Assembly (NCBI GenBank): GCA_027336365.1
Contig: DAHWFY010000010.1
Span: 1-32,211 of the forward strand
Direction: 5' to 3'
Source of the DNA: Bacillota bacterium
GTDB lineage: Bacteria > Bacillota > Bacilli > Alicyclobacillales > Alicyclobacillaceae
Length of the DNA stretch: 32,211 bases
A model generated the notes under the pieces. The model saw only the letters and a program-made list of their open reading frames with translations. It did not search any database and was not told the origin of the DNA. The translations under genes and the position numbers were made by a program. Numbering within the stretch: position 1 is the first letter of the stretch; each line of letters opens with the position of its first letter. Of this stretch, positions 9,905-11,442 are shown in pieces.

Positions 9905-10528
9905 ATGACAACTCTTCTATTCGATTTAGACGGAACCTTAATCGATACCTCAGCGGTGGTCCTACCCGCCTTCGCCACTACTTTGGCATTTTTAGGAGCA
10001 AAAGTCCCTACGGCGGACGTTTTGCGTGCCACCTTCGGTATTCCGGATGAGGAAATTTGGAGGCAATTGTTGCCCGAGGGAGACGATGCTCTGCGGCAAA
10101 TGGCATACGCACGCGAACAGGCGGAAGTTTGTACCGGCATTCGCCAGACTCATGTGTTGTTACCCGACGCCCTAGCCGTCCTGCAAGAACTCAGCAGTCG
10201 AGGTCACACCTTAAGCGTGGCCAGCAACTGTAGCCAAGCTTACCTAGAGGCGGTGGTCAGTTCCCAAGGCCTAGCCTCATTGTTAACTCACCCCCTATGC
10301 CTAGAAAGCGTAGGCGGCCACAGCAAGGTGGACATTTTATTCGCACACCAAGCCTATTTCGGTTCAGCCGACCTCGTTATGATTGGAGATCGTCAGACGG
10401 ACGTGGAGGCTGCCAGAGCCATCGGCGTGCCGATGGTGGGGTGTGCTTTCGGTTTTGGCAATCCCCAAGAGGTCGCCGAAGCCGATGTGGTTATTCACCA
10501 TCTGTCCCAACTGTTGAACCTGTTTTAG
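9905..10528 (+). CDS. HAD-superfamily phosphatase (phosphoglycolate phosphatase/PpaX-like)
   Basis: A 207-residue HAD hydrolase with all four motifs: FDLDGTLIDT (nucleophile D7, acid D9), SVASNCS, the lysine in GGHSKVD, and MIGDRQTDVEAA with the metal-binding aspartates. A helical cap sits between motifs I and II, as in phosphoglycolate phosphatase, PpaX and beta-phosphoglucomutase. The substrate is not predictable. No Shine-Dalgarno sequence precedes ATG 9905, and the best promoter places the transcription start at the ATG, so the mRNA may be leaderless. Its stop overlaps the stop of the convergent ThyX-like gene by 4 bases. Closeness to gnd and zwf may hint at a sugar-phosphate substrate; closeness to the ThyX-like gene would fit a nucleotidase equally well. 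Confidence 0.85.
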   Translation: MTTLLFDLDGTLIDTSAVVLPAFATTLAFLGAKVPTADVLRATFGIPDEEIWRQLLPEGDDALRQMAYAREQAEVCTGIRQTHVLLPDALAVLQELSSRGHTLSVASNCSQAYLEAVVSSQGLASLLTHPLCLESVGGHSKVDILFAHQAYFGSADLVMIGDRQTDVEAARAIGVPMVGCAFGFGNPQEVAEADVVIHHLSQLLNLF

Positions 10529-11442
10529 CGCATCTTGTCCCACATGGATGGAGGAAGATTTCCCAAGGTCTGCATGATTAAGTCGTATAAGTCCGCCTGA
10601 GTCGCCTCCTGAGTGGACAACCCTGCCTGAACCGCTAGGTCTGCCAGAGTATAGCGTTCCTTGCGCAGGGTACGCATCGCCTTTTCCCACTGGTCCAGAT
10701 GAGGACCGTGGTAGTCAATGAGAAAGGTCCACTTTTCTTCATCCATCTGCAGGCAGGCCTCAAGCATGTCTGCCACCACTTCCACGGTTGCCCCTTGCGC
10801 CCCTTTGGCAAATAATCTCTGTCGAAACACATCCTTAATCAAAGCTTCCTCCGAAAACTCCATCAAAAAGGGGGGCATAATGTACCCCACAGGAAGTTTG
10901 GACCGGGCTGCCTGCATCTGTTCCGCATGCTCCTGCTTGGCCAACCGGATGACATCTCGAATCCGCTCCAGCTCCGGATCATACTCTGTCGGATTTTTCG
11001 CTTCCACAGGCAGTTCAAATCCCCAGGGCACATTGGCCCTCTGCCCACCCGCAATGCGCGTGGGTCGACCGACAGTGTAGGTCACCAAATGGTCATACAC
11101 CGGCTTGGCTACACCGATGAACAAAAATAAGATGGTCTCTCCACGAATGGGTTCATAACTGTGTCCTGCCGCCACCATGTTCTTGAGAAATCGATCCGTG
11201 TTGGCCATATCAATGTATTTTCCCAGGTACAAACTGGCTTTAAACGCAGAACTCAGGCGATTTTCATCGGTGGCTCGCAAGGCAATCACCCGCTGGTGCT
11301 GTGTGACCTTGTAGCCCTCTTGGGCATAACACAAGTTAATAAATTTTTCCAGGTTACTCAGGTGTTCCGCAATGGGTACCAAATCGGACAAAAAGCGCAG
11401 CCGAGGATGGTGCAAAATGGACTCCGTATCCAATCGAAACAT
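10525..11442 (-). CDS. Divergent ThyX-fold (FAD-dependent thymidylate synthase-like) protein
   Basis: A 305-residue soluble protein whose segment order follows ThyX: an early [15 protein letters not shown] strand-helix, [27 protein letters not shown] at about 94-120 (ThyX has H-x-FEH followed by IxGxSRxxxHQLVRHR), then a glycine-rich segment, then ARSKLPVGY, and [16 protein letters not shown], which resembles the AQWEIR helix. The signature arginine motif RHRxxSxNxxSxRY is not conserved; the matching stretch is [21 protein letters not shown]-terminal extension of some 80 residues is added. ATG 11442 follows GGAAGGAAG by a few bases; longer frames to 11622 lack such a site. The family call is from motif order only. 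A true thymidylate synthase role is doubtful, and the protein may act on another nucleotide or be a structural paralogue. Confidence 0.5.

Follow-up and report, generated by a model that had tools for sequence, protein, structure and literature searches.

We propose that P0001, a 305-residue protein encoded in a bacterium of the Alicyclobacillaceae, is a thymidylate synthase of ThyX stock with a rewritten cofactor and substrate site, which would convert dUMP into dTMP with methylene-tetrahydrofolate and would be the only such enzyme in this bacterium; we put the probability of this reading at roughly 0.84. The proposal draws on the predicted ThyX fold, the homology to ThyX by way of a short type of the family, the exclusion of ThyA, the frequent absence of dihydrofolate reductase (DHFR) and the phage context, all obtained by computation.

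For cells with no means of importing thymidine, dTMP synthesis is obligatory, and to our knowledge just two established enzymes, the mutually unrelated ThyA and ThyX, carry it out. A P0001-type protein appears to be the only dTMP-making enzyme of Alicyclobacillus and a number of related bacteria. Most of a cultured bacterial family, together with members of several others, would apparently live without recognisable ThyA and ThyX and rely on a P0001-type relative. Since this ThyX relative does without the defining residues, it would offer a direct way to test what the chemistry requires of the site. P0001 goes unrecognised by the protein-family databases consulted here; its family would fill an apparent metabolic hole in the genomes that carry it, and its function would give names to hypothetical phage genes. 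ThyX has been studied as an antibiotic target, for which the extent to which its site can be rewritten is of practical value.

The gene and its neighbours

The window, the whole stretch of DNA analysed here, covers positions 1 to 32,211 of contig DAHWFY010000010.1 (GenBank assembly GCA_027336365.1). The P0001 gene and its surroundings comprise the following features.

9905-10528, + strand: HAD-family phosphatase gene, tail to tail with the P0001 gene (NCBIfam matches below cut-off, to phosphoglycolate phosphatase-like HADs)
10525-11442, - strand: coding sequence of the ThyX-like P0001, the proposed sole thymidylate synthase, stop codon included (translation, conservation, predicted fold)
11449-11458, - strand: strong Shine-Dalgarno sequence GGAAGGAAGG upstream of the P0001 ATG (direct sequence reading)
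11665-12798, + strand: mnmA, encoding tRNA 2-thiouridine(34) synthase, divergent from the P0001 gene (NCBIfam equivalog over cut-off)

The open reading frame starts with the ATG at 11442, encodes 305 residues plus the stop codon, and overlaps the HAD phosphatase gene by four bases at its 3' end. A sequence-only reading of the window had already placed the gene tail to tail with a HAD phosphatase and head to head with a tRNA thiolase, in agreement with this arrangement. The scan for promoters and terminators returned signals no more frequent than those in shuffled sequence.

Homologues of P0001 with 74-89% identity and an always open frame were found in 27 of the 37 genomes searched from the GTDB family, its own genome counted. 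Nearly all the named records of these carriers are Alicyclobacillus or Alicyclobacillaceae, and two are Bacillota MAGs. In most of the carrier genomes the identity of MnmA is 64-70%, which is below that of P0001. Because the identity within the family exceeds that of this neighbour and the open frames are conserved in 27 family genomes, we rejected the possibility of a chance open reading frame. P0001 had no match in the plasmid collection.

The proposed check on the conservation of the neighbours showed that mnmA adjoins the P0001-family gene in nearly all carriers of the family. Non-carriers, G008 and G023 among them, still keep gnd, the HAD phosphatase gene and mnmA close together without a P0001-type gene. 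The neighbours are therefore uninformative on function and report common descent, and a functional tie of P0001 to MnmA or the HAD phosphatase was dropped.

Elsewhere in the window, a 928-residue open reading frame (23288-26074, - strand) holds two energy-coupling-factor ATPase domains in a single chain and is apparently a fused ECF transporter protein. Another of 355 residues (12928-13995, - strand) encodes a MoeB/ThiF-family adenylyltransferase whose matches fall short of the NCBIfam cut-offs and whose chain continues for about 90 residues past the matched domain.

Predicted fold and homology to ThyX

The structure of P0001 was predicted as a monomer from 34 relatives, giving a model with a pLDDT of 83 and a pTM of 0.82. 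When the model was compared with the solved structures in the PDB, the first 47 entries were all ThyX or PolB, headed by ThyX from Thermotoga maritima with a Z-score of 14.2 and an rmsd of 2.8 over 199 residues, whereas the next unrelated fold reached a Z-score of only 3.6. Foldseek returned the same verdict. The fold of P0001 is thus predicted to be ThyX-like, as had been claimed from the sequence. The model defines the loop of residues 127-135 poorly; the substrate loop of ThyX proteins is flexible (PMC3498832). P0001 had also been described as longer than ThyX owing to a C-terminal extension, which lies beyond the ThyX core, and the protein has an N-terminal addition as well.

10528-10707, - strand: C-terminal part beyond the predicted ThyX core, residues 246-305 (about 60 residues), ending in a conserved S-M-W301, with W301 invariant in 64 members

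The short type of the family, described below, is missing about 20 residues of this part and keeps the SMW end. We considered the C-terminal part as a DNA-binding domain and rejected this idea, as its resemblance to a helix-turn-helix is too weak (Z-score 3.6).

By sequence, P0001 found no credible match in Pfam (best HipN at E 0.13), NCBIfam or PHROGs, and only noise among the PDB sequences (E 0.22), so that membership of an unrelated named family was rejected. P0001 and the other bacterial proteins of the long type did not match the ThyX family profiles (PF02511, TIGR02170) over the curated cut-offs, nor did P0001 match the ThyA profile PF00303.

The P0001 family is nonetheless coherent and comprises two types: a long type in Alicyclobacillaceae, two other families and phages, and a short type of about 250 residues, which was first met in another family of the same order and is 33-37% identical to P0001. 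The profiles of the two types match each other at E 9e-40. The short type in turn passes the Pfam Thy1 (PF02511) cut-off at E 1e-8 to 1e-11, with a weak match to TIGR02170 (best E 7e-4), and a single long-type copy from a phage matches Thy1 at E 1.4e-4, slightly below the cut-off. A direct profile comparison between the long type and a handful of ThyX sequences was weak. As this direct comparison is only suggestive, the case for homology to ThyX lies in the bridge formed by the short type and in the fold. The profile-profile check that had been suggested is thus supportive through the short type and weak for the long type taken directly, and the alignments point to an indirect but solid link from the long type to ThyX.

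A genome from outside the family, G361, encodes a protein intermediate between these two types (G361:C36:65525-66265; long-type profile 158 bits, Thy1 E 1.6e-4). The genome also holds canonical and tandem ThyX, and its intermediate form is a useful bridge for a family tree. Tandem-domain ThyX-like open reading frames of 480-534 residues, each with two Thy1 matches, were observed in four genomes; in G048 and G059 they are the sole ThyX-type matches found.

G025:C7:118593-119864: tandem ThyX-like open reading frame
G048:C81:5901-7244: tandem ThyX-like open reading frame
G059:C30:13213-14514: tandem ThyX-like open reading frame
G361:C5:130530-131768: tandem ThyX-like open reading frame

Exchange of the ThyX signature

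The claim that the RHRxxSxNxxSxRY motif of ThyX is replaced proved accurate. P0001 has TYT...RxxGGxR-AN in its place, so that R78-H79-R80 ... S88-G89-R90 of T. maritima ThyX correspond to T121-Y122-T123 ... G133-Q134-R135, of which only the last arginine is retained. Conservation was assessed over 64 members, comprising long-type, short-type and phage copies. The relevant segments, assigned by alignment around the shared blocks, are as follows.

11137-11145, - strand: R100-G101-E102, invariant in 64 members, with E102 at the place of ThyX E58 in the H-x-x-P-F-E-H block
11074-11106, - strand: K113-x-V-Y116-D117-H118-L-x-T121-Y122-T, replacing the ThyX R78-H79-R80 helix; K113, Y116, D117, H118, T121 and Y122 invariant in 64 members
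11032-11058, - strand: loop R129-x-x-x-G133-x-R135-A136-N137, replacing ThyX S88-x-R90-Y, with R135 as the putative R90 equivalent; invariant in 64 members
10903-10914, - strand: Q177-A-A-R180, with invariant R180 as the putative equivalent of R147 of T. maritima ThyX
10795-10821, - strand: Q208-R209-x(4)-G214-A215-Q216, corresponding to the ThyX R174...A179-Q180 helix and one residue longer; Q208, R209, G214 and Q216 invariant

The replacement motif KxxYDHxxTY...R...GxRAN is invariant in 64 of the 64 members, and residues 113-122 are helical in the predicted model. Altogether 32 positions are invariant over the 64 members, including K113, Y116, D117, H118, T121, Y122, R129, G133, R135, A136 and N137. 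Because the new motif is as strictly conserved as this, the alignment argues that the ThyX signature is exchanged, not decayed. The putative equivalents of E58, R90, R147, R174 and Q180 are kept as E102, R135, R180, R209 and Q216, respectively. Among these, R135, R180 and R209 are invariant; their mapping to R90, R147 and R174 is taken from aligned sequences, which are shifted by one residue in the stretch from R209 to Q216.

In T. maritima ThyX, dUMP is held by Arg78, Arg80, Ser88 and Arg90 (PMC3498832), and PolB holds its nucleotide by Arg82, His83, Ser96, Arg98, Arg166 and Arg193, among others (PMC5003785). For the P0001 family we infer the reaction, the use of flavin and the residue roles. 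P0001 would methylate dUMP to dTMP with methylene-tetrahydrofolate as the source, returning tetrahydrofolate and using flavin as cofactor. R135, R180 and R209 would bind the nucleotide in the manner of ThyX R90, R147 and R174, and K113, Y116, D117, H118, T121, Y122 and R129 would take over the flavin and phosphate contacts of ThyX R78, H79, R80 and S88. This bacterium would have no thymidylate synthase besides P0001.

The rewritten site also raises the possibility that the protein makes dTMP with a different cofactor or a different supply of carbon or hydride, such as FMN, another redox cofactor or another order of steps, and so constitutes a mechanistic class of its own that shares the scaffold of ThyX. 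The arginines and histidine that hold flavin and the dUMP phosphates in ThyX are, after all, replaced by a new invariant set in all 64 members. On the other hand, the putative equivalents of E58, R90, R147, R174 and Q180 are kept, and DHFR is usually absent from carriers, as it is with ThyX. We regard it as unlikely that a mechanistically distinct synthase of this kind is the only source of dTMP for the majority of a bacterial family, for some bacteria of several other families and for the phages of these bacteria.

Distribution against ThyA, ThyX and DHFR

A search for thyA or another thyX in P0001's own genome, as had been advised, found neither ThyA nor a Pfam ThyX, the genome being 83% complete. 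Within the GTDB family, intact ThyA was present in none of the 27 carriers and in all 10 non-carriers, with thyA in two pieces in one of the latter (G023). This mutual exclusion has a Fisher p of 3e-9, phylogeny disregarded. The best mnmA tree implies five switches of the trait inside the family, with one contrast on well-supported branches. As the backbone of this tree is weak and only that contrast is well supported, we are unsure of the number of independent switches between ThyA and the new gene, and a claim of their formal independence was given up.

Beyond the family, two more families contain the long type and four the short type, and the one intermediate form comes from yet another. 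The carriers tested from these other families yielded no ThyA, and the long-type carriers there also lacked Pfam ThyX. Canonical ThyX accompanies a P0001-type gene in a single carrier of the family, G036, and in G361 with its intermediate form, both of which we counted against the reading of a sole synthase. In the short-type family f2, G050 and G052, at a completeness of only 81% and 73%, showed none of these genes.

ThyA yields dihydrofolate and needs DHFR, while ThyX keeps the folate reduced, and folA is thus often missing in the presence of thyX (PMC9931769). DHFR was found in 13 of 13 genomes with ThyA, and thyA and folA are adjacent in the family genomes possessing ThyA. Intact DHFR was found in only one of the 27 family carriers (G016), plus a 44-residue fragment in one. 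We counted against the thymidylate synthase reading that DHFR is kept in G016, G055, G390, G407 and three genomes of family f26, as well as the loss of the signature residues, the weak direct profile match between the long type and ThyX, and the limited completeness of P0001's own genome.

Two loci show altered thyA genes. In the carrier G024, a shortened thyA is fused to or runs into a 44-residue folA fragment beside a cyclic-nucleotide-type regulator gene (G024:C1:4158148-4158860), which looks like a relic of a decayed thyA-folA pair. The non-carrier G023 yielded no thymidylate synthase gene other than the split thyA, whose two parts are separated by a stop and lie next to an intact folA (G023:C6:1903-3047); the split may reflect a frameshift, masking or real damage.

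Alicyclobacillus grows without a thymidine supplement. The thymidine kinase gene is present in many carriers and absent from several near-complete ones (G007, a single contig, as well as G011, G012 and G022) and from most short-type genomes of family f2. Since several carriers, including the single-contig G007, lack thymidine kinase, scavenging of thymidine is an unlikely substitute for synthesis.

Phage copies and the proposed function

Seven viral copies of the gene were found, of which three lie directly after dUTPase and four near ribonucleotide reductase genes, with a dNMP kinase in two cases. Alicyclobacillus phage KKP_3916 carries a 65% identical copy annotated as a hypothetical protein; the gene directly before it matches dUTPase, and ribonucleotide reductase genes lie further upstream. 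Two IMG/VR contigs from one source hold NrdG-like and NrdD-like genes, dUTPase, the P0001-type gene, a DNA methylase and a dNMP kinase, the NrdD and methylase of the second contig being assigned by likeness to the first. On a third IMG/VR contig, genes for the large and small subunits of ribonucleotide reductase and a flavodoxin-domain gene precede the copy. At L113 and L114, the viral copy is downstream of SSB- and DnaB-like genes. In these phage clusters a thymidylate synthase supplies the link in the pathway from dUTPase, which yields dUMP, to dNMP kinase, which adds a phosphate to deoxynucleoside monophosphates.

This context bears on whether P0001 acts on another pyrimidine nucleotide, as a PolB-like UMP methylase or a hydroxymethylating enzyme derived from ThyX, with dTMP supplied by an unrecognised enzyme. 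PolB, which is among the structural matches, demonstrates that the fold can accept UMP (PMC5003785), and an altered site could mean an altered substrate. Yet such an activity would leave the carriers without a source of dTMP, while the gene occurs in just those genomes that lack ThyA, the phage copies follow a dUMP-making enzyme, and no antibiotic biosynthesis genes occur among the scanned neighbours in the window, all of which makes this alternative improbable. It is very improbable that P0001 is a regulator or an inactive ThyX remnant in cells living on thymidine uptake: the thymidine kinase gene of many carriers and the faint helix-turn-helix likeness of the C-terminus (Z-score 3.6) would suit it, but several near-complete carriers and most f2 short-type genomes lack that kinase, P0001 is better conserved than MnmA, phages carry the gene with dNTP synthesis genes, and one would not predict a remnant to be missing precisely where ThyA occurs.

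We accordingly favour the thymidylate synthase reading. The sequence-only reading had suggested a nucleotide-modifying enzyme of unknown activity; its ThyX fold, lost signature and C-terminal extension agree with our results, and the outcomes it named as refuting, a predicted structure unlike ThyX or matches to a named unrelated family, did not occur. Its "unknown activity" was too cautious, because dTMP synthesis is indicated both by the distribution relative to ThyA, DHFR and thymidine kinase and by the phage clusters, which include dUTPase, ribonucleotide reductase and dNMP kinase. In the open-access literature, the scope of our search as distinct from subscription journals, we found no description of this protein.

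Comparison with known systems

ThyA (PF00303) shares with P0001 the proposed product dTMP, and the two genes are mutually exclusive within the family. In contrast to P0001, to which it is unrelated in sequence, ThyA is coupled to DHFR.

Thy1 of Thermus thermophilus (PDB 6j61) combines a ThyX core (Z-score 13.6) with an extra C-terminal domain and in this respect resembles P0001, but it bears the canonical signature RHRTASVNEISGRY.

PolB, a ThyX-like UMP/dUMP methylase of polyoxin biosynthesis (PDB 4p5a, 4p5b), has the ThyX fold in common with the P0001 model (Z-score 12.4). It is reported to be 38% identical to ThyX and to bind its nucleotide with Arg82, His83 and Ser96 (PMC5003785), all lacking in the P0001 family.

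ThyX itself (PF02511, TIGR02170; T. maritima TM0449, PDB 1o26 and 8reo) is resembled by P0001 in predicted fold (Z-score 14.2), in the order of its blocks, and in the putative equivalents of E58, R90, R147, R174 and Q180; as with ThyX, carriers are without ThyA and usually without DHFR. P0001 differs from ThyX in that the long type lacks a Pfam or NCBIfam match, R78, H79, R80 and S88 are swapped for a new invariant motif, and a two-residue RG insertion in the FEH block and N- and C-terminal additions are present. Since the defining signature was tested and is absent, we place P0001 outside canonical ThyX and regard it as a ThyX-derived variant, which probably functions in the ThyX manner with its binding site rewritten.
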